Shown piece after piece: positions 306-50,688 of a DNA stretch of 52,057 nucleotides. The DNA lies in NCBI GenBank assembly GCA_944324245.1, contig CALUVO010000005.1, positions 1-52,057 of the forward strand. Reading direction: 5' to 3'. A model generated the notes under the pieces. The model was not told the origin of the DNA and ran no database searches. It saw only the letters and a program-made list of their open reading frames with translations. The DNA is from Candidatus Gastranaerophilales bacterium. GTDB taxonomy: Bacteria; Cyanobacteriota; Vampirovibrionia; Gastranaerophilales; Gastranaerophilaceae. How positions within the stretch are numbered: the stretch's first letter is position 1; each line of letters starts with the position of its first letter. A program made the translations under genes and the position numbers.

Positions 306-1295
306 TTAACAGTTAACTTTTACGCCTATTCTGTGTGAAGCTAGCGCTTCATCAAGGTAATTTGAAGAATCATCTGTTCTGAATATAATTGTTGCTTTGT
401 TATCATCTGCACAGGAGGTCATCAGCCCTTTCATCCATTCCAGATATTCAAAAGGATTGTCCTGATCTATCAATTTGCCGAAATTTTCGACTTCTATCAG
501 CGTTCTTGTGCCGCTTTTGTCATATTCTTCTTTTGCTTTTACCAGTTTATCATCCAGCTCTTTCATCATTTCCAGCTGGTCATCATTGTCCTGTACGTAG
601 TCAAAATTAACCTGTGAATTTTTTCTTGTATAATCAATCAATTCTTTGCCGAGTTTTTCATTTTTTTCTTCAATCATTATTACGTTTGGGATTTCGGCAT
701 ATTTTCCGAGTCTTTCATCTTCTACCGGCGTAACAAATCCGTCTTTAAGCTCTTTTTGATATACCATTACTCTGTTTGCTTTTTCTGTTTTATCAAGCAT
801 AGAGTCTATTTTCTTTATATGATTTGCAATCTGCTGCTGCTCCTGTTTTGCTTTCATATCACATATTAGCATACCTATTCTTTCAACTTCTTTGTCCAGC
901 ATTTTATTTTCTTTTGCTCTTTTGAGAGCTGCTTCTGCAGCGTTGAATGGAGCATTTGCTATTTCCCACAATAATAATGTTGCACCGTCCAAAAATATTC
1001 TGGACATAGTTCTTGCATCTTCCCAGTCCTCCGTAAGCGGTCGGGCTAAAACTGCTGTGATATAATTTAAACCGTTTGACTCCATGTATAAGTCCTTAAA
1101 AGGTCTTTGTTTACTTTCTTTATGCTGCGTTTTCCATTCATCTCCTGACTGATTTATGAATTGTTTGGCTATTTGTATTTCATAATCCTCATAGTATCCG
1201 GAAGGATAATATTCGCCCCTAAAGGAGGGATTTGTCTGCATTGTGTTTTTTCTGTTGTACTGAATTGTTCTGTTTGTGATTGCTGGTATTCTCAT
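306..1295 (-). CDS. Unknown protein with a degenerate AAA+-like C-terminal half and N-terminal F-x-G motif
   Basis: A 329-residue protein of no recognised family. Residues 23-27 read PSFRG, the short motif shared by several proteins in this window. The middle (about 125-190) is charged and probably helical or coiled. From about residue 200 the order of segments resembles an AAA+ core. A strand (VIMI) is followed by EEKNEKLGK where GPPGTGKT would be, then a Walker-B-like strand RTLIEVENF at 264-272 without the DE pair, then IIFRTDD near 303 with a downstream Arg (SHRI) like a sensor 1 / arginine-finger segment. No lid domain follows. It starts 16 bp after the stop of the true AAA+ gene, with GGAAAGAGAG as ribosome binding region. 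I infer a non-hydrolysing partner of that ATPase. The fold assignment is by eye. Confidence 0.8.
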   Translation of the reverse strand: MRIPAITNRTIQYNRKNTMQTNPSFRGEYYPSGYYEDYEIQIAKQFINQSGDEWKTQHKESKQRPFKDLYMESNGLNYITAVLARPLTEDWEDARTMSRIFLDGATLLLWEIANAPFNAAEAALKRAKENKMLDKEVERIGMLICDMKAKQEQQQIANHIKKIDSMLDKTEKANRVMVYQKELKDGFVTPVEDERLGKYAEIPNVIMIEEKNEKLGKELIDYTRKNSQVNFDYVQDNDDQLEMMKELDDKLVKAKEEYDKSGTRTLIEVENFGKLIDQDNPFEYLEWMKGLMTSCADDNKATIIFRTDDSSNYLDEALASHRIGVKVNC

Positions 1296-1311
1296 AGTCT
1301 CTCTTTCCTTT

Positions 1312-2298
1312 CTATTTCATATATTTCTCATAATCTTCTGCAAAATTTTTAACTCTGTTTAATGGCAAAAAACGTTCTCTGGCAAATCGTTTAATTGCAG
1401 CCATTATTAAATCCTGTTCATTAACAATTTGTGATGATGATAGGGCAATTTTTGCAATACCTTTCAAATCCGAATTAGTTAATAAACTATCGTTTGATTG
1501 TGCATAGTCAAACAATTTATCTACAACTTTTTTGTAATTAATATTGCTATCGGCACTTTCGCGCAAATAATGTTTTAAAACCTGTATAGCGTTATATTTT
1601 GATGGTGGTTCAAATGCAACAAGCACGGGTTTTAGCGCCATAAAATCATCACCTGCCTGTGAAAGATTATTTGTAGCCCCGAAGAAGGTGCATTTGTATT
1701 TGTCACTGCAGTCTTTTAACAGTTCGGCAAATTGTTTTTTACTCTCTTCTCCTTTATTGAATTTTGTAAATTCATCCATGAAAATAATCCTGCGTCCGTC
1801 CTGGGCAAAATTGTCACTGCTCTTTTCAAAAAGTTTTTTGAATTTTTCAAAAACTGTTTCCGGTGAATCAAAAGGTCTTGCGTCAATTTTTTCTACAATA
1901 CAGCCTGTTTCTTCGGCAATAGCAAGAGTCGAGGTGGTTTTTCCGTTGCCTCTGGGGCCGAAAAAGGCAAACACTCCGGGGATATTTACATCTTTGCCTT
2001 CTCTTTCCAGTTTTATTTTACTGATAAATTCTCTGTTCAGGATATTTTTTATGTCATCATAGCCGGCAATTTTTCCAAATCCAAAACCTTCAACCGGTTT
2101 ATATTTTATTTCAGGTTTACAATCATTAAGAAACTTATTTATTATCTCGCTGCTTTCAGCTCTTGCTTGTCCGTAAAACTCAAGAACCTGCATTTTTAGT
2201 TCTTTTAATTTTGCAATTACGGCAAGTTTATTTTGCTCTATTCCCGATTTTATTGCTTGTGAATAAGCAGCTTCCAGCTCTGTGTATCTGGCAGTCAA
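1312..2298 (-). CDS. AAA+ ATPase, apparently 5'-truncated
   Basis: An AAA+ ATPase. From the TTG at 2298 it shows a GKIAGYDDIK linker typical of classic AAA proteins, Walker A GPRGNGKTT (about 114-122), Walker B RIIFMDEF (170-177), a sensor-1-like FFGATNN (205-211) and a helical C-terminal lid. The frame stays open and protein-like upstream to 2403, encoding PSFKAVKGLGG and then an amphipathic stretch, but this has no ATG or GTG before an in-frame TAA at 2404-2406. Repeat sequence begins at about 2414. I infer that the original start codon and ribosome binding site were lost when the repeat arrived. The present start would be the TTG at 2298, or the gene is silent. It is cotranscribed with the pseudo-AAA+ gene downstream. 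The substrate is unknown. Confidence 0.85.
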   Translation of the reverse strand: MTARYTELEAAYSQAIKSGIEQNKLAVIAKLKELKMQVLEFYGQARAESSEIINKFLNDCKPEIKYKPVEGFGFGKIAGYDDIKNILNREFISKIKLEREGKDVNIPGVFAFFGPRGNGKTTSTLAIAEETGCIVEKIDARPFDSPETVFEKFKKLFEKSSDNFAQDGRRIIFMDEFTKFNKGEESKKQFAELLKDCSDKYKCTFFGATNNLSQAGDDFMALKPVLVAFEPPSKYNAIQVLKHYLRESADSNINYKKVVDKLFDYAQSNDSLLTNSDLKGIAKIALSSSQIVNEQDLIMAAIKRFARERFLPLNRVKNFAEDYEKYMK

Positions 2299-2413
2299 GG
2301 TGCTCTTTTCTGCACCTGTTTTTGCGATAAAGTCTCTTATTATTTTAAGAAGGTCTTCCGCACTGCCGCCAAGGCCTTTTACAGCCTTAAATGACGGTGT
2401 ACTTTAATATTAT

Positions 2414-2760: not shown

Positions 2761-2851
2761 GTAGTTGGCTTTTTACTATTTTTTCAAAATAATACTTTTA
2801 CATAGGTCAATTTAAAAAATACCACCATATGCCAGTTTATCTTTATAACTG

Positions 2852-3448
2852 CTAGTTTGCAAATTCATCAAAATTTTCTTTTTGTATTTCAAAATTCTTG
2901 TATTTAAAGTTTGAATTTTTTTCTTTCATATTTACTTTTTGCAAAAATTTTGCTTCAGAAGGTTCTTTTGCTGTTGCGCTGACACTTTGGACATTTGTCC
3001 TTTTATCTATTAAATCTACGAATTTTTTGATAAGAGCCATACCGATATGTTTGATATCTCTTTTATTTTTATTTTGGGCGTATGCAAATTGCGGATTTAC
3101 ACCGATTTTGAATATTTCTGCAGAATCTTCAGTATTGCTTTTAAATTTATTTGTTGTCAGCATTCCCAGAATTTTTTTAGGATTTATATTTTGAAAGTTT
3201 TTATTTTGTGTTGTAAGTGCAAAAACAGGAATATTAAAATTTTTTGATTGTCCTTCTATTTCGACTGACAAATTTTTTCCACTCCACAATCTTGTTACAT
3301 CTTCTAATGCAAATAAATCTCCTTTATTGCTTTGTGGATTAAGTCTTACTATACTAACAGGTATTTCTTTCCAGGTATTGTTTATTTTTGCCTGTATGTT
3401 GGTTGTGCCGATTTTTCTTGCACCAAATGCCACATTGTTGTTTCCCAT
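2852..3448 (-). CDS. Hypothetical protein with N-terminal F-G motif and possible GNAT-like C-terminus
   Basis: A 198-residue soluble protein with no signal peptide. It opens with NNNVAFGARKIG, an example of the N-terminal F-x-G class in this window. The C-terminal third (IKHIGMALIKKFVD, then VQSVSATAKEPSEAKFLQKVNMK) has the pattern of an acetyl-CoA-binding helix, strand and helix of GNAT acetyltransferases, where the final segment usually reads FYekLGF. The canonical Q/RxxGxG is degraded, so an enzyme role is uncertain. ATG start, with GAGG about 8 nt upstream. It stands alone, facing repeat copy A. Confidence 0.75.
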   Translation of the reverse strand: MGNNNVAFGARKIGTTNIQAKINNTWKEIPVSIVRLNPQSNKGDLFALEDVTRLWSGKNLSVEIEGQSKNFNIPVFALTTQNKNFQNINPKKILGMLTTNKFKSNTEDSAEIFKIGVNPQFAYAQNKNKRDIKHIGMALIKKFVDLIDKRTNVQSVSATAKEPSEAKFLQKVNMKEKNSNFKYKNFEIQKENFDEFAN

Positions 3449-3562
3449 TTACTTTTCCTCTTTGTATATCGTTTTAGCGTGAGTTTACTGACTATATAAA
3501 AGCCTGTAATAAGCATAAAGTATGAACATAAAATATTTTGTCAGCTTGTTAAATTATTTTAA

Positions 3563-3594
3563 CAAAAAATCCGGATATCATTCCGGATTTTTTG
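3563..3594 (-). terminator. Terminator after trxA
   Basis: Perfect inverted repeat CAAAAAATCCGGA / TCCGGATTTTTTG with a 6-nt loop, five bases past the trxA stop codon on the minus strand. Being A/T symmetric it can work in both directions. Confidence 0.85.
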
Positions 3595-3598
3595 TCTT

Positions 3599-3928
3599 TT
3601 AGTTGTTACTGTGTTTTAATGCAATTTTTTTTAGTTCATCAAGCTGCTGTACTCCGGCTTTTTGTTCTACAAGTTTACCGTTTTTAAATATAAGAATTGC
3701 AGGAATACCGCTTATAAAATATTCTGCGGCTTTTTCTCTGTTTTCGTCTACGTTTAGTTTAGCGACAACTGCCTGACCGTCCAGTTCATCAGCAAGTTTC
3801 TCGATAATAGGCCCCTGTGTCCGGCAATGCCCGCACCATGGTGCAAAGAAGTCTACTATTACAGGATTTTTTGTGTTTTTTAATTCAATATCAAAATTTT
3901 CGTCTGTAAATTCCAATACCTTTGACAT
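3599..3928 (-). CDS. trxA: Thioredoxin
   Basis: A 109-residue single-domain thioredoxin, the usual length. It has the active site WCGHC (residues 31-35; the GH variant instead of the commoner GP gives a more oxidising, PDI-like centre in studied proteins), the conserved Asp in VDFFAPW, and the cis-Pro in GIPAILIFKNG. No signal peptide, so cytoplasmic. A strong AAGGAG lies 7 nt before the ATG and overlaps the stop of the upstream small membrane protein gene, so the two are translated from one message. It reduces protein disulfides, normally with electrons from thioredoxin reductase, which is not in this window. Confidence 0.95.
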   Translation of the reverse strand: MSKVLEFTDENFDIELKNTKNPVIVDFFAPWCGHCRTQGPIIEKLADELDGQAVVAKLNVDENREKAAEYFISGIPAILIFKNGKLVEQKAGVQQLDELKKIALKHSNN

Positions 3929-3939
3929 TATTAACTCCT

Positions 3940-4143
3940 TTAATTTTTACATATATCGCATTTTCCAAAAAATGTTTCTTCTCTGGAATTTTGAGGAATC
4001 TCTTCAATACATATATATCTATCAGAGAATTTTATGTTCTCAGTTTCTGTTTCTTTGCTCTGTGATTGATTTTTGTTTCTATTTTTTATAAAAACAGTTA
4101 CTGCAGCAATAAATAGAGCAGGCAATAATATTTTTTTTAGCAT
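3940..4143 (-). CDS. Small membrane-anchored protein with C-terminal CxxC
   Basis: A 67-residue protein starting at the ATG at 4143, preceded by AAAGGA at good spacing. A longer frame upstream to 4206 lacks such a site. Residues 3-19 form one hydrophobic segment (LPALFIAAVTVF), followed by a Lys/Asn-rich, Glu-rich linker and a C-terminus ending KCDICKN. The CxxC at the very end, in a gene cotranscribed with thioredoxin, suggests a redox partner or substrate. This is inference. No family recognised. Confidence 0.75.
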   Translation of the reverse strand: MLKKILLPALFIAAVTVFIKNRNKNQSQSKETETENIKFSDRYICIEEIPQNSREETFFGKCDICKN

Positions 4144-4307
4144 ACATATTCCTTTCTTTTTTGCATGTTTATTATTTATATATTTGAAGCTTTTTTTCAT
4201 TGCCATTCAGGATAATTTTTTATATTAACTTTAAATTTATAGTAATATGTTCTTGACAAAAAGTTAGTAAAGCCTTACATTTATTTTGGTAAAACAAGGA
4301 GGATTTG

Positions 4308-4772
4308 ATGATTATAAAGCCTGTTGGATTATTAATATATTCCGGCAATAAATGTGTGCAAAGACAACAAACTTATTCTAATATTGCTTTTGGTGAGACA
4401 AAGGTACCGGATTCATTTCGACATAATGAATTAAGAGTCTTTTATCACCATATATATGAGTACAAAAAGGGGTTAAGGAGTCTTGTTCTTACAACTGAAC
4501 GTGCAGATAACAGAAAAATAATAGAAGCCAGACTTAAAAGAGAAAATATTCCGTATGTAATAAATGATGTGAATAAAAAGAATATAAATGTATTTTTCGG
4601 AAATAATGATTGTATAAAAGTAGTATCAACTTTTAACAAAAGACTTGATAAACTGACACCGGAGCAGGATTTTATGCTGGGCATAATGCTTGGCTATGAT
4701 AAAATTCTGCAATGCAAAAGATATTTTGTTATGAGAGACAAGTATTTTAAACAAAACAGTGAAAAAGTCTGA
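4308..4772 (+). CDS. DUF2023-like protein
   Basis: A 154-residue protein. From about residue 40 it carries FYHHIYEYKKGLRSLVL, IPYVI, NVFFGNNDC and TPEQDFMLGIMLGYD..QCKRY. I recognise this order as the DUF2023 family, which in other bacteria is often next to flavodoxin genes and whose function is unknown. It has an extra N-terminal piece of about 35 residues with YSNIAFGETK, the F-x-G motif of this window. I chose the ATG at 4308 because AAGGAGG ends 5 nt before it; the TTG at 4305 is too close. A terminator overlaps its stop. No flavodoxin gene is nearby. Confidence 0.85.
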   Translation: MIIKPVGLLIYSGNKCVQRQQTYSNIAFGETKVPDSFRHNELRVFYHHIYEYKKGLRSLVLTTERADNRKIIEARLKRENIPYVINDVNKKNINVFFGNNDCIKVVSTFNKRLDKLTPEQDFMLGIMLGYDKILQCKRYFVMRDKYFKQNSEKV

Positions 4773-4790
4773 GTTCGCCTCAGACTTTTA
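4763..4790 (+). terminator. Terminator overlapping the DUF2023 stop codon
   Basis: AAAGTCTGAG / CTCAGACTTT inverted repeat with a short TTCGC loop followed by T and A residues. The TGA stop at 4770-4772 lies inside the first arm. Confidence 0.8.
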
Positions 4791-4847
4791 AATATTTTAT
4801 ATAGTATAATTTTAAGAAAAATTGTAAATTTAAGACGGGATTGTGTT

Positions 4848-5330
4848 ATGTCGGGAAAAGATTATAAAACAAATGTAATGAGAATTTTGGAGAAATATAA
4901 AATACCGTATAATCATTATTCTTATGCAGATACAGATGCAATAAGCGGTATAGAAGTGGCTTCAGTGCTTAATCAAAATCCCGATAAAGTTTTTAAGACG
5001 CTTGTTACTGTAGCTAAATCAAAAAAATACTATGTCTTTATGATTCCGGTTGCAAAAGAGCTGGATTTAAAAAAAACAGCACATGCCGTTAATGAGAAAT
5101 CAGTTGAAATGCTGCATTTAAAAGATCTTTTGCCTCTAACCGGATATGTTCACGGCGGGTGTTCTCCGATTGGTATGAAAAAACAGTTTGATACAGTAAT
5201 AGATGCGTCTGCAACAAATTTTGATACAATAATTTTCAGCGCAGGGAAAATAGGTTATCAGGTTGAATTATCTCTTGATAGTTTGAAAAAAGTTATAAAT
5301 TATTCTGTTTCGGATATTGTTTCAGACTAA
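4848..5330 (+). CDS. ybaK: Cys-tRNA(Pro)/Cys-tRNA(Cys) deacylase, YbaK/EbsC family
   Basis: A 160-residue protein of the YbaK branch of the INS-type editing superfamily. These proteins hydrolyse Cys wrongly attached to tRNA-Pro. Family signatures seen are KVFKTLV near residue 48, the catalytic-site Lys in AKELDLKK, and GYVHGGCSPIGMKK at about 98-111, which is nearly diagnostic. Full length for the family. It overlaps the 3' end of the convergent ZIP transporter gene by four bases. A TATAAT at 4804-4809 upstream could be its promoter. Confidence 0.93.
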   Translation: MSGKDYKTNVMRILEKYKIPYNHYSYADTDAISGIEVASVLNQNPDKVFKTLVTVAKSKKYYVFMIPVAKELDLKKTAHAVNEKSVEMLHLKDLLPLTGYVHGGCSPIGMKKQFDTVIDASATNFDTIIFSAGKIGYQVELSLDSLKKVINYSVSDIVSD

Positions 5331-6166
5331 GAATGAATAACAATAAGCCCTATTAAAATTCCTATCATTACAAAAAATGCAGGAAGTTTGCTTCTGTACA
5401 TAAGAATTGACTGCGGTAATATCTCGCCAAATACAACATACAGCATTGCACCGCTTGCAAAACCCAGGCTCAACGCAAGACCGAGCGGGCCAATATCCCC
5501 GAGCCAGTAGCCTATAATCGCACCGACAATTGTAGGAGCTCCGCTTAAACCTGTGACAAGTATTGCCATACGTCTTTTTACTCCTCCGTTTATAAGAGGA
5601 ACGGCTATTGCCATACCCTCGGGTATATTATGAAGGCCGATTAATATTGCAAGTACAAGAGCAGACCCCTGCATAACACCGTTAGTATTTGCAAAAGACG
5701 CACCGATTGTCATCCCTTCAGGAACATTATGCAGTGCAATTGCGCACGCCATTATTACACCGGCAACAAACAAAGAAAATCTTGTATCATTCTTTTTTAT
5801 ATGAACGGAAAGATGATTACTGTGTATGATTTCATCCAAATCATCAGCTGTTTCGGGGTGTTCTTTGTCTATGTGAGAAACTTCTTTGTTTGTAACTCTG
5901 TCAATAAAAAGGTTTAAAAGATAAACAACACCTGCTCCAACAGAAATAGCAAGACTGACAATGTACACATTTGTTTTTGTCTCAATTGCGCTGACTATCA
6001 AATCAAAACACACAATAGCAACCATTACACCTGCTGCAAAACTCAAAAGCAGACTGGCTGTTTTGTTGGAATCACGTTTAAAAAGTGCTCCGATTGCACC
6101 GCCGAGTCCGGTTCCTCCGATTCCGGCCAGTGCTGTTGCCTGTATCAATATCCAGAATTTTTCCAA
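5327..6166 (-). CDS. zupT: ZIP-family metal transporter (ZupT/GufA-like)
   Basis: A 279-residue integral membrane protein with about eight hydrophobic segments. The two metal-binding helices carry HNVPEGMTIG and HNIPEGMAIAV, the ZIP signature of HN-PEG repeats. A His/Asp/Glu-rich cytoplasmic loop (residues about 95-120) separates the first and second halves, as in GufA-type ZIPs. The start is a TTG at 6166, chosen because GGGAG lies 6-7 nt upstream and no ATG fits. It follows zntA by 61 bp on the same strand, so zinc-responsive control is likely. ZIPs usually import Zn or Fe into the cytoplasm, so pairing one with an exporter is notable. Confidence 0.9.
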   Translation of the reverse strand: MEKFWILIQATALAGIGGTGLGGAIGALFKRDSNKTASLLLSFAAGVMVAIVCFDLIVSAIETKTNVYIVSLAISVGAGVVYLLNLFIDRVTNKEVSHIDKEHPETADDLDEIIHSNHLSVHIKKNDTRFSLFVAGVIMACAIALHNVPEGMTIGASFANTNGVMQGSALVLAILIGLHNIPEGMAIAVPLINGGVKRRMAILVTGLSGAPTIVGAIIGYWLGDIGPLGLALSLGFASGAMLYVVFGEILPQSILMYRSKLPAFFVMIGILIGLIVIHS

Positions 6167-6227
6167 TTTTTTCTCCCTGAATTATCAATATATTTATAGC
6201 TAATATGATATATCTAAATTACTAAGA

Positions 6228-8123
6228 CTATTTTTGAATAAAACATTTTGTATGTAAAGCCCTCAGGGAATTTAAAACGGCAATCAGTGCTACACCGACG
6301 TCAGCAAAAACAGCACCCCACATAGTTACAAAGCCCATTGCTCCAAGCATAAGAAATAATAATTTTACACCGATTGCAAATACTATATTCTGTTTTACTA
6401 TGTGCATTGTGTTTTTTGCAATTTTTATTGCAACAGGTATTTTTGACGGTTTGTCATCCATAATAACGACATCTGCTGCTTCTATTGCCGCATCAGACCC
6501 CATTGCGCCCATTGCAATACCTATATCCGCTCTTGTCAGGACAGGCGCATCATTGATACCGTCTCCGACAAATATTACAGAACTGTTAGCTTGTTTTTGA
6601 TTAATAATTTCTTCAGTTTTTTCTACTTTATCTGCCGGTAATAGCTCAGAATATACTTTATCAATACATAGTTTTTTAGCCGTGTATTGTGCAGCAGAAT
6701 CAGAATCACCGGTAAGCATTATGGTTTGTTTAGCTAACTTTTTCAATTGTTTGATTGCTTTTTCAGAGTCTTCTTTGACCTCGTCGGAAATAACAATATA
6801 ACCGATGTATTGATAATCTTTTGCTGCATATACGATAGTGCCGGCTTCTGCGGCTTTTGTATATTTCACATTAAATTTATCCATTAATTTTGAATTGCCA
6901 GCCAGAATTACAGCATTGTCAACAGTCGCTTTTACGCCGTTTCCTGCAATTTCTTCAATGTCTTTAACATCAGAAGGATTGATTTCTTGTGCATACGCTG
7001 CTTTTACAGACACAGCTATCGGATGATTTGAATAATTTTCCGCAGTTGCTGCATATCGTAAAAGTTCATTTTTTTCAATGTTATTTGGTACAATCTTGGT
7101 AACTTTAAAAGTTCCTTTTGTAAGAGTCCCTGTCTTGTCAAAGATAACAGAATCCGGTTTTGACAGTAATTCCAGATAACTGCTGCCTTTAATAAGGATT
7201 CCGCATTTTGAAGCTCCGCCAAGACCTGCAAAGAATCCTAAGGGTACAGATATAACAAGTGCACACGGACAAGAAATTACAAGAAATGTCAGTGCTCTGG
7301 AAAACCATAAGCTGAAAGGTGCACCTGTTATAACCGGCGGAATAATTGCAAGAGCTGCTGCACCAAGCACAACTGCCGGTGTATAATAACGTGCAAATTT
7401 AGTTATAAAATTCTCTGCTTTTGCTTTTTTGGAGCTTGCGTGCTCTACCAGTTCAAGAATTTTGGAAACAGTTGATTCACCAAATTCTTTTTCTACACGA
7501 ATTTTTAAAAATCCGTTTGTGTTAATACAGCCGCTTATTGCTGTATCGTTTTCTTTTAATTCTCTTGGTACAGGCTCGCCAGTCAAAGCAGATGTATCAA
7601 CAGCTGCTTTACCTTCAATAACAGTACCGTCTAGCGGTATTTTTTCACCTGTTTTGACAATTATAATATCACCTATTGCTACTTCTGCTGGTAATTTCTT
7701 TACAATTTGATTGCCGTTTTCTTCTACATTGGCATAATCAGGACGAATATCCATAAGCTCCGTGATTGAGCGTTTTGATTTTTCTACAGCAATATCCTGT
7801 AAAAATTCTCCTAATTGGTATAAAACCATTACCATTACTGCTTCAGGGTATTCTTTTATTGCAAATGCACCTAATGTTGCTAAGCCCATAAGAAAGTTTT
7901 CATCAAAGAAATCTCCCTTAAAAATATTTCTTATTGCTTTATATAAAACATCCCAGCCAGCAATTAAATATGCAGCAACAAAAGCCGTGACTTTTATTAA
8001 TCCTGTAAAAGGAAAAATAATAGCCGAAAGAAAAATTGCGAAAGCCAGGACTAACCTGTAAATCCTTGTTTTGTCCTGTTCGTGATTGTGATGATGCTCA
8101 TGTGAGTGACAGGAGTCGCACAT
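6228..8123 (-). CDS. zntA: P1B-type Zn/Cd/Pb-exporting ATPase
   Basis: A 631-residue heavy-metal P-type ATPase that exports divalent metal from the cytoplasm. It begins with a metal-binding tail rich in Cys and His (MCDSCHSHEHHHNHE) in place of an HMA domain. It shows TGEP (181-184), the CPC motif in a membrane helix (285-287), the phosphorylation site DKTGTLT (319-325), a GDGINDAP hinge and a last-helix segment FADVGVALIAVLNSLR. The Asp there is typical of the Zn/Cd group (P1B-2). The ATG has AAGGAG upstream. Its promoter contains an SmtB-type operator, and the divergent gene encodes the matching repressor. Confidence 0.96.
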   Translation of the reverse strand: MCDSCHSHEHHHNHEQDKTRIYRLVLAFAIFLSAIIFPFTGLIKVTAFVAAYLIAGWDVLYKAIRNIFKGDFFDENFLMGLATLGAFAIKEYPEAVMVMVLYQLGEFLQDIAVEKSKRSITELMDIRPDYANVEENGNQIVKKLPAEVAIGDIIIVKTGEKIPLDGTVIEGKAAVDTSALTGEPVPRELKENDTAISGCINTNGFLKIRVEKEFGESTVSKILELVEHASSKKAKAENFITKFARYYTPAVVLGAAALAIIPPVITGAPFSLWFSRALTFLVISCPCALVISVPLGFFAGLGGASKCGILIKGSSYLELLSKPDSVIFDKTGTLTKGTFKVTKIVPNNIEKNELLRYAATAENYSNHPIAVSVKAAYAQEINPSDVKDIEEIAGNGVKATVDNAVILAGNSKLMDKFNVKYTKAAEAGTIVYAAKDYQYIGYIVISDEVKEDSEKAIKQLKKLAKQTIMLTGDSDSAAQYTAKKLCIDKVYSELLPADKVEKTEEIINQKQANSSVIFVGDGINDAPVLTRADIGIAMGAMGSDAAIEAADVVIMDDKPSKIPVAIKIAKNTMHIVKQNIVFAIGVKLLFLMLGAMGFVTMWGAVFADVGVALIAVLNSLRALHTKCFIQK

Positions 8124-13065: not shown

Positions 13066-13341
13066 ATTTCATATCGTCAACTGACTCCGACTACTTGTTG
13101 AACCTGTGCAATAAGCAAGTTCAATATACGACAACAAGTCCGGCACAGCCAACAAGCGCATGGGGTCACTTCCGTAAAATTTATGCTTTTGCGCCCTCGC
13201 TACCTCTCGCAAATATGCCACAGGCATATTTATTCGGCAGAGTGTGTACCACTCCTAGCTTGAGGCGTAGGCAAACCGCAGGTGCCGCTGTACGCATCAG
13301 GATGCCCTCGGGTGCAAGCGAGCTCCCACTCAGACAGTATA
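13066..13341 (+). repeat. Mosaic intergenic repeat, copy C
   Basis: It starts with the end module containing CATATCGTCAACTGACTCC (13066-13094), one base after a stop codon. Then come TTGAAC..GTTCAA, AGTCCGGCACAGCC, AAGCGCATGGGGTCACT, the palindrome AAATATGCC-N3-GGCATATTT (13211-13231), TTCGGCAGAGTGTGTACCAC, and GTACGCATCAGGATGCCCTC with GCAAGCGAGCTCCCACTC. All these modules recur in inverted order in copy A. An 83-codon frame here is judged spurious. It fills the gap up to the pgi ribosome binding site. Confidence 0.88.
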
Positions 13342-14831: not shown

Positions 14832-15043
14832 GTCTGAGGCGGCATCCCTTGTATGCGTGTACACACTCTGCCGAATAAATATGCCGGTGGCATATTTATG
14901 AGAGGTAGCAAGTGACGCCAAGTCTAGCATTTTACTGAAGTGACCCCATGCACTTGTTGGCTGTGCCGGACTTGTTGTTAAACAGCGAACTTGTTTATTG
15001 CACAGGTTCGACAAGTAGTCGGAGTCAGTTGACAATATGAAAT
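14832..15043 (-). repeat. Mosaic intergenic repeat, copy D
   Basis: Same module order as copy A. GAGGCGGCATCCC..TGTATGCG is followed by TACACACTCTGCCGAA, the palindrome TAAATATGCC-N3-GGCATATTTA (14876-14898), TGAGAGGTAG, AGTGACCCCATGCACTTGTTG, TGTGCCGGACTTGTTGTT, TTGCACAGGTTCGACAAG, and the end module GGAGTCAGTTGACAATATG (15015-15043). It stops two bases before the GAAAGG ribosome binding site of rubrerythrin. A 108-codon frame on the minus strand in it is judged spurious. Confidence 0.88.
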
Positions 15044-19314: not shown

Positions 19315-20340
19315 ATGAAAATTAAAACTATTACAAATCAAAATTCCCAGATTTCATTTAAAGGGATGTATAACAATAAATTGCTGCTAAAAAGTTTAAA
19401 ATTGGCTTCAGATAACGGCACACTTTTTAATGCAACGGCAACTCTTGTTCTTTCTTCCGTTGCAAGACCTGTTGCTATTATGTCTACTCCAAAAACAGAT
19501 AAAGAAAATAAAAAGCTTGCCTGTGCAAAAGCTCTTTCTTCAACAGCTGTAGGCTATTTAATAATGATGCTTGCATCATTACCCGTAGCAAAAGCCATAC
19601 GAAAAATCGATAATAAGCCGTCTGAATTTTTAAAAGAATCAACAATAAAAAATCTTCAATCTAATGCAAAAAGTCTTAGAACATCAAAAATATACTCTTT
19701 TGCAACACAACTGTTCAAACTGGGAGTCGGATTTGTAATTGCAGCACCTAAATCAGCACTTACCTGTTCCTTAATTCCGGCAGTTATGCTTTTATTTCCT
19801 AAACAGAAACAAAAGCAAAAAGACGGAGCAAACAGCAAAGTCACATCAAAGGTCATATCTTTTAAAGGCCTCTATAATAACGCAACAGAATCTCTTGCAA
19901 AAGGAATAGGAAAAATCATAGACACAAAGCCGCTGCAAAACTTTGTAAAAAAATATTATGAAACAAACTATGCCCAGCATATCACATCACTGACAGATAC
20001 ACTGTTAACCCTTGCTTTTGTACAGCAGACAGCAAAAAGCAAAAAAATTGAACAAAAACGAAAAAAACCGCTTATATACAATTCTCTGATTTCAACAGGA
20101 TTATGTATTGCCGGAGGTTATGCACTAAACAGTGCAACAAAAAAATCAACCGCAAAATTTATCAATAAATTTAAACAAATAAATAAGGATTTGCCTGAAC
20201 TGGAAAAATATGTGGAGGGCATAAAGATTGCTAAGCCGGCGTTACTGCTGGGTATTATTTATTACATCTTTATACCTGTTATATCTACATTTCTGGCAGA
20301 CAGAACATATACTGAGCACAGACCTAATTTGTTAAAATAA
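19315..20340 (+). CDS. Internally duplicated hydrophobic protein with two ISFKG motifs
   Basis: A 341-residue protein of unknown family. The N-terminus has ISFKGMYNN (residues about 13-21), and ISFKGLYNN occurs again at about 182-190. Each is followed by a similar course of a basic amphipathic helix and hydrophobic helices (TATLVLSSVARPVAIM, STAVGYLIMMLASLP, GVGFVIAA in the first half; SLTDTLLTLAFV, LISTGLCIAGGYAL, ALLLGIIYYIFIPVIST in the second). This looks like a tandem duplication of a tag plus membrane unit. There is no classical signal peptide and no good Shine-Dalgarno. Function unknown. Confidence 0.8.
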   Translation: MKIKTITNQNSQISFKGMYNNKLLLKSLKLASDNGTLFNATATLVLSSVARPVAIMSTPKTDKENKKLACAKALSSTAVGYLIMMLASLPVAKAIRKIDNKPSEFLKESTIKNLQSNAKSLRTSKIYSFATQLFKLGVGFVIAAPKSALTCSLIPAVMLLFPKQKQKQKDGANSKVTSKVISFKGLYNNATESLAKGIGKIIDTKPLQNFVKKYYETNYAQHITSLTDTLLTLAFVQQTAKSKKIEQKRKKPLIYNSLISTGLCIAGGYALNSATKKSTAKFINKFKQINKDLPELEKYVEGIKIAKPALLLGIIYYIFIPVISTFLADRTYTEHRPNLLK

Positions 20341-50196: not shown

Positions 50197-50688
50197 CTAC
50201 GCTTTCAGACTTTCTTTGTATGCAGCATGTTCTATGGCTAGCATTGTATGAAGGTCATCAACCGGTCGTTTCAGCAAATTATTTACACTGTAAGTGTTAT
50301 CAAATTTGGAAGAAATTGACTCCATCAAACCTTTAAAATCAAGAGAAATTTCTGTATTTTTAGCTTTTTCCCAGGAATTTGCAAGATTATCTTTAATCTG
50401 TCTGCCAAAAGAGATAATAGAGTTTATTCTTGAACGGAAAGCTTCATTAAATGAATTCATACCACCGACAAAAGCACTCGCTACCATTTTTGATTTGTTT
50501 GTTAATTTAGTAAATGAATCAAACGGATTTGATGAGTTTGTTGTTTCTTTTGCTTTTGTAGATTCAAATACATCTGATGTTAATACATTGCCTTTAAAGT
50601 TGATTCCAAACGGGTTGGAATGTACTTCCTGTCTTTCTTCTTTAGACATAGGCTTAAAAATTGAAAAATTTGTTTGAGAGATTTTCAT
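50197..50688 (-). CDS. Hypothetical protein with N-terminal INFKG motif
   Basis: A 163-residue soluble protein. After a charged start it has NPFGINFKGNVLTSD (about 25-39), containing both FG and FKG. A Ser/Thr/Asn-rich linker follows, then helices (ASAFVGGMNSFNEAFRSRINSIISFGRQIKDNL; DDLHTMLAIEHAAYKES). LDFKGLMES near residue 117 is a second FKG. No family recognised. GGAAGG lies before the ATG. First gene of a two-gene operon with the HEAT-like protein. Confidence 0.75.
   Translation of the reverse strand: MKISQTNFSIFKPMSKEERQEVHSNPFGINFKGNVLTSDVFESTKAKETTNSSNPFDSFTKLTNKSKMVASAFVGGMNSFNEAFRSRINSIISFGRQIKDNLANSWEKAKNTEISLDFKGLMESISSKFDNTYSVNNLLKRPVDDLHTMLAIEHAAYKESLKA

Follow-up and report, generated by a model that had tools for sequence, protein, structure and literature searches.

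An intact AAA ATPase and a degenerate AAA+ neighbour in Gastranaerophilales: candidate subunits with a split active site

The window analysed here, a stretch of 52,057 nucleotides corresponding to contig C5 of a 2.04 Mb Gastranaerophilales genome bin, contains two neighbouring genes on the reverse strand, gene A (1312–2403) and, 16 bp downstream of it, gene C (306–1295). Judged by sequence, A is an intact ATPase of the classic AAA type, with p97/Vps4 as the nearest relatives. C is almost certainly a dead AAA+ homologue of A, i.e., a pseudo-ATPase, since its Walker A and Walker B motifs are gone. What links the two predicted proteins is a pair of complementary losses, the arginine finger in A and the P-loop in C, and we consider it probable that A and C complement each other within a AAA+ machine that is obligately hetero-oligomeric and in which the finger is supplied in trans.

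Genes A and C in the window

Gene A was found to be an open frame of 363 codons. The first-pass annotation had placed an ATPase gene with intact Walker A and Walker B motifs at 1312–2298, and both motifs are indeed present on the reverse strand, GPRGNGKT at 1936–1959 and the acidic pair DE of FMDE (IIFMDE) at 1771–1776, in a frame that stays open to 2403. The shorter span is the frame read from TTG 2298, the sole listed start; no ATG, GTG or TTG start is listed upstream of 2298, and the open frame is limited by a TAA (2404–2406) directly before the PSFK lead, whose PSFKA (2383–2397, reverse strand) lies upstream of the TTG. Protein A matched PF00004 in Pfam (E 3e-10). The A profile was nearest to p97/VCP (E 7e-38), with archaeal Vps4/CdvC also matched, and among NCBIfam models A proteins scored higher with CDC48/CdvC than with RFC/DnaX. 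The structure predicted for A, which was of fair confidence (pLDDT 61.8), matched Rpt subunits, Vps4, p97, and ATAD1 with E-values of 1e-6 to 1e-8.

Of the features by which a classic AAA protein is recognised, Walker A, Walker B, and the sensor-1 Asn are all present in A, and the arginine finger or fingers of the SRH are absent. The stretch from the sensor-1 Asn to the PP (1603–1671, reverse strand; NNLSQAGDDFMALKPVLVAFEPP), which is the canonical place of the AAA arginine finger, does not contain a single Arg, and no Arg was found between Asn 245 and P266 in the A proteins of the window and of two related genomes, G230 and G008. Among classic AAA proteins the finger stands 14 residues past the sensor-1 Asn, as in p97 (NRPNSIDPALRRFGR359FDR362).

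Gene C starts with ATG and encodes 329 aa. In the alignment to A, EKNEKLGK (residues 210–217; 645–668, reverse strand) was found to stand on the P-loop GPRGNGKT and LIEVEN (residues 266–271; 483–500, reverse strand) on the Walker B IIFMDE. There is no GxxxxGK[ST], the acidic pair is replaced (VEN), and a residue other than Asn occupies the sensor-1 position. The earlier description of this product as AAA+-like without P-loop or Walker B was confirmed, since hhalign of 13 C proteins against 13 A proteins gave a probability of 99.7% (E 3.3e-26) over 150 columns that span the P-loop, Walker B, and sensor-1 strands; this profile homology and the motif comparison support the pairing of an active with a pseudo-AAA+ protein. 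An iterated search seeded with C alone recruited C homologues and then absorbed the A family. The window protein had no significant match in Pfam, and the C profile matched archaeal Vps4/CdvC among solved structures (E 1.2e-6), with the HR of C on the finger segment of Vps4. An AlphaFold2 model from five sequences was of fair confidence (mean pLDDT 61.6; mostly 62–87 in the core, residues 205–307), and its core followed the order b1-a1-b2-a2-b3-a3-b4-a4, which is that of AAA+ proteins. The best Foldseek matches were p97 D1, Vps4, and FtsH, with a probability of 1.0 but E ~6e-3. The structural check suggested in the first-pass annotation thus pointed to an AAA+ fold, at modest model confidence.

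Protein C ends 7 residues past R322 (codon 330–332, reverse strand), and the helical C-terminal lid is absent. R322 occupies the arginine-finger position, corresponding to p97 R359 by a gapless register from sensor 1 and to the Vps4 finger in the HMM alignment. Only three columns are invariant in all 13 C proteins, whose mean column identity is 28%, and R322 is one of them. A retained Arg had been noticed in the first reading as well; its probable role as a finger is added here. Since A has no Arg in the finger loop while C has R322 there, the two active sites appear to be complementary, with the P-loop coming from A and the finger from C.

Cassettes and arginine fingers in Gastranaerophilales

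Both of the named relatives closest to gene C are Gastranaerophilales MAGs. A search of named genomes with three close C members returned only G230 and G008, and the genome search assigned both to the family and genus of the window genome. The C profile, which also catches A-type proteins, so that weak matches are not all C, matched in 116 of 286 sampled genomes of the order and, in a phylum-wide sample, in 56 of 292 genomes, every one of them from Gastranaerophilales; outside the order, this sample gave no match. No C relative was detected in collections of viral contigs, phages, and plasmids, and a phage or plasmid origin of C was set aside on this ground. In the literature library that was searched, no paper on AAA systems of Gastranaerophilales was found.

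Among the 81 loci fetched, both kinds of subunit, with and without P-loop, were found together in 67; several of the other 14 are short contigs. Adjacent P-loop/dead pairs were on the same strand in 78 cases (53 of them within 40 bp) and on opposite strands in 20, and the linkage of the two genes, for which a check in relatives had been proposed, was thus shown. In the usual cassettes the genes share a strand in the order B-A-C or A-B-C, and most gaps are below 40 bp. In subunit B, which is part of many cassettes, a membrane segment is joined to a dead, finger-bearing AAA domain; such segments were predicted in 38 of 107 dead proteins versus 6 of 104 P-loop proteins. In the nearest cassette (G230, locus L127), B is located at 3587–4840, A at 4803–5984, and C at 6001–6990. 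The two-gene operon of the first-pass annotation therefore stands as far as A and C are adjacent on the same strand, but the cassette in its ancestral form comprises the three subunits B, A, and C. No DNA-handling domain was recognised in the cassettes.

Other arrangements were also observed. Four loci (L104, L107, L110, and L111) contain larger cassettes of four to five AAA-related genes, in which P-loop subunits with and without finger occur together with degenerate ones, which suggests rings of several distinct subunits. Single proteins of ~635 aa that combine a membrane segment with three degenerate AAA-like domains in tandem, of which only the last has an arginine finger, were found in L055 (2886–4790), L056 (1319–3226), L082 (7114–9033), and L124 (4401–6320). 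In L058, an ankyrin-repeat protein with the N-terminal motif described below (2761–4950) and three unannotated genes are divergently oriented beside the cassette, and a similar arrangement was seen in another genus (L059, 3581–5818).

The finger window was defined as an R at positions 14–17 counted from sensor 1, and it was scored in 222 domains, 117 of them without and 105 with a P-loop. An R was found there in 97/117 P-loop-less domains and in 36/105 P-loop domains; for comparison, other 4-residue windows of the same stretch contained R in 6–16 of the 117 P-loop-less domains. In each of the 67 loci where both kinds of subunit occur, at least one P-loop-less subunit bears the finger. In single-P-loop loci the P-loop subunit was without finger in 37 of 47, and 18 of the 20 multi-P-loop loci contain a P-loop subunit that retains it (Fisher p 2e-7, a value that overstates independence, since only ~5 P-loop losses can be counted on the domain tree, with too few independent pairs for a test). 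These counts fit a ring requirement by which the finger is dispensable only in a subunit that faces a dead site. The main argument is the Arg that is still conserved in dead, highly diverged domains, rather than the Fisher p. Ten single-P-loop cassettes (e.g., L060, L075, and L106), in which the P-loop subunit still has an Arg in the finger window, fall outside the simplest rule.

The window copy and the N-terminal motif

An interspersed repeat (2404–2661) separates A in the window from its first ~30 codons. The repeat is modular, is ~257 bp long, ends in GTTGACGATATGAAAT, and showed 63 partial matches in the genome, on many contigs; further copies in the window are located at 13066–13257 and 14845–15043. 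It had no match in Rfam and does not appear to be a known RNA family, because the Rfam search of the first 20 kb gave only a tRNA. The upstream part of the cassette was found on another contig of the same genome (C91, locus L131), in the order of an upstream gene shared with G230, a reduced B (mini-B), the start codon of A with ~30 codons, and the repeat at the contig end; A in the window begins directly after the same repeat. It is likely that the repeat was inserted in the leader of A and that the assembly break is inside the repeat. The mini-B (L131, 3723–4187; 154 aa) consists of the N-terminal motif and the membrane tail, and the entire degenerate AAA domain is missing. In the B protein of G230, near-identical stretches (EKPSVKNTNTIKEEIKDGxKQSxQ) are present on either side of the AAA domain, and recombination between flanking stretches of this type could have produced the deletion. 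The window's own A/C copy may be decaying, as A is cut by the repeat and B has no AAA domain.

The PSF(R/K) lead had been regarded as a tag shared by the two proteins. It is present on both (in C as PSFRG at 1215–1229, reverse strand), but it was rejected as a mark of the A/C pair only, since many unrelated neighbours carry the same motif. PSFRG and PSFKA belong to a motif that begins with M[KR]I and continues through a variable Asn-rich stretch to [ILVP][SAN]F[KGT][GSA]. In its broad form, this motif was found within the first 75 residues of 30% of the proteins in the fetched loci versus 4.7% of internal windows, and by class in 115/211 AAA proteins and 80/442 others, with the counts drawn from the fetched loci and the window; many unrelated proteins in most of the fetched loci carry it. 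The carriers in the window are the genes at 306–1295, 1312–2403, 2852–3448, 19315–20340, and 50197–50688, and the motif was seen again in a DUF2023 protein (4305–4772) whose leader contains SNIAFG. Because the motif is clade-wide, the PSF(R/K)G lead is no evidence for pairing of A and C; it is possibly a sorting signal.

Proposed machine, alternatives and known systems

In the proposed machine, A would bind ATP via its intact Walker A, Walker B, and sensor-1 Asn, and would be unable to complete a neighbour's site since it has no arginine finger. C, with a catalytically dead AAA+ core, would not bind ATP and would present its arginine finger to the nucleotide of A from the next ring position; that the finger of C complements A in a complex in this way has, in our judgement, good odds in its favour. 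Hydrolysis would be possible only at an A–C (or A–B) interface, as in Torsin with LAP1/LULL1, because A is without finger and C without ATP binding. B would be a second finger donor in the intact cassette, and its transmembrane segment would tether the machine to the membrane; on balance, though with less assurance than for the finger, we favour membrane tethering of intact cassettes. B and C could either replace each other or alternate as partners of A. Assembly in one ring, most likely alternating, or in dimers would be expected, and activation in trans would occur only once A meets B or C. We infer complex formation between A and C as well as the activity and the substrate of the complex. 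The substrate would be remodelled without classical threading, because aromatic pore loops are almost absent (an aromatic-hydrophobic-Gly motif was found in 6/105 P-loop domains).

Alternatively, C and also B may be pseudo-ATPases with a regulatory or scaffolding role, which bind A but leave its active site incomplete, with the HR kept for folding or for another interface. Purely structural pseudo-ATPase subunits are possible, the HR could pack locally, and the ten single-P-loop cassettes have an Arg in A too; we nevertheless regard this as unlikely, since the Arg of C is in the canonical finger register and among the three residues that survive unchanged in 13 highly diverged proteins, and since the loss of the finger in A tracks its being the sole P-loop subunit. 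Somewhat more improbable is that each subunit forms its own homo-oligomer, that A uses another Arg as finger, e.g., R204 just before Walker B, and that the operon reflects co-regulation only. R204 is invariant in the A family, but many C and B proteins retain the same Arg (RTL), which makes it look structural. From AAA+ topology, R204 would also lie away from the active-site end, as it stands at the N-terminus of the Walker B strand; C, being without P-loop, would moreover have no need of a finger.

The damage to the cassette of the window genome, in which the repeat interrupts A and B is without AAA domain, would also agree with C being an ordinary decaying paralogue, i.e., a functionless degenerated duplicate of A. 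This is very improbable in view of the dN/dS values against the nearest cassette (G230), which were 0.145 for A and 0.147 for C and show that purifying selection still acts on both in the comparison with G230, though a very recent loss would be compatible with such values too. Against decay also stand the matches of the C profile in 116 of the 286 genomes of the order, the many genomes that have intact cassettes with C under purifying selection, and the Arg and P203-N204 of C, which are held while P-loop residues drift. Complementary subunits with a finger supplied in trans are thus the reading that we prefer.

The best-known case of a finger-less AAA+ ATPase that a dead, membrane-anchored AAA+ partner activates is that of the eukaryotic Torsins, whose action is disputed; Torsins are related to Clp/HSP100, and TorsinA is found with LAP1/LULL1 at the ER and nuclear envelope. 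LAP1, a membrane-anchored protein without Walker motifs and C-terminal domain, carries R563 as its finger Arg and activates the finger-less Torsin (PMC4358337), and aromatic pore loops are absent from Torsins (PMC5425593). The cassettes described here are alike in their finger-less catalytic subunit, in a partner with an AAA+ core that has lost Walker A/B and the lid and conserves the finger Arg, in the membrane anchor of a partner (here B of the relatives, as the window genome has only a domain-less B tail), and in the near absence of aromatic pore loops. They are unlike in that A is closest to p97/CdvC/Vps4 and has no Clp/HSP100 ancestry, so that A is no Torsin, in that partners and catalytic subunit are plainly homologous in sequence and are encoded in bacterial operons, and in that there are often two partners, C and a B with membrane segment, in several cassette types. 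By analogy, Torsin–LAP1/LULL1 is probably the closest mechanistic parallel, which does not imply membership.

Other systems share single features. Clamp loaders (RFC, and the gamma complex with delta') and ORC likewise consist of AAA+ paralogues, not all of which are ATPases, and their Arg fingers act in trans; the present cassettes differ from them in having no recognised DNA-handling domain, in the membrane segments of B, and in weaker matches to RFC/DnaX models than to CDC48/CdvC. The classic AAA proteins p97/CDC48, CdvC/Vps4, and ATAD1/Msp1, which are relatives of A in sequence and fold, are typically homo-oligomers with finger arginines, whereas A has no finger arginines and has dead partners. 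Models of IetA from the Iet anti-phage system matched most A proteins (E up to 7e-10), but this is a general AAA match and no partner protease was recognised among the neighbours examined; the window's own A had no match in PADLOC. A reading as a defence system was not adopted, as PADLOC gave only general AAA matches such as IetA.

For the order as a whole, we give about even chances to the view that Gastranaerophilales possess clade-specific, repeatedly diversified, membrane-tethered AAA+ machines with split active sites, which would be a mechanistic counterpart of Torsin–LAP1 with an independent origin from p97/Vps4-type AAA. If this is true, the 'bookkeeping' of the ring, i.e., which subunit may drop its P-loop or finger and when, could be tested directly in bacteria and compared across natural variants, in a set that is independent of the Torsins and has one to four P-loop domains in each cassette. 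It would also open up, for the first time, a large gene family that lacks annotation in a gut lineage not yet cultured.
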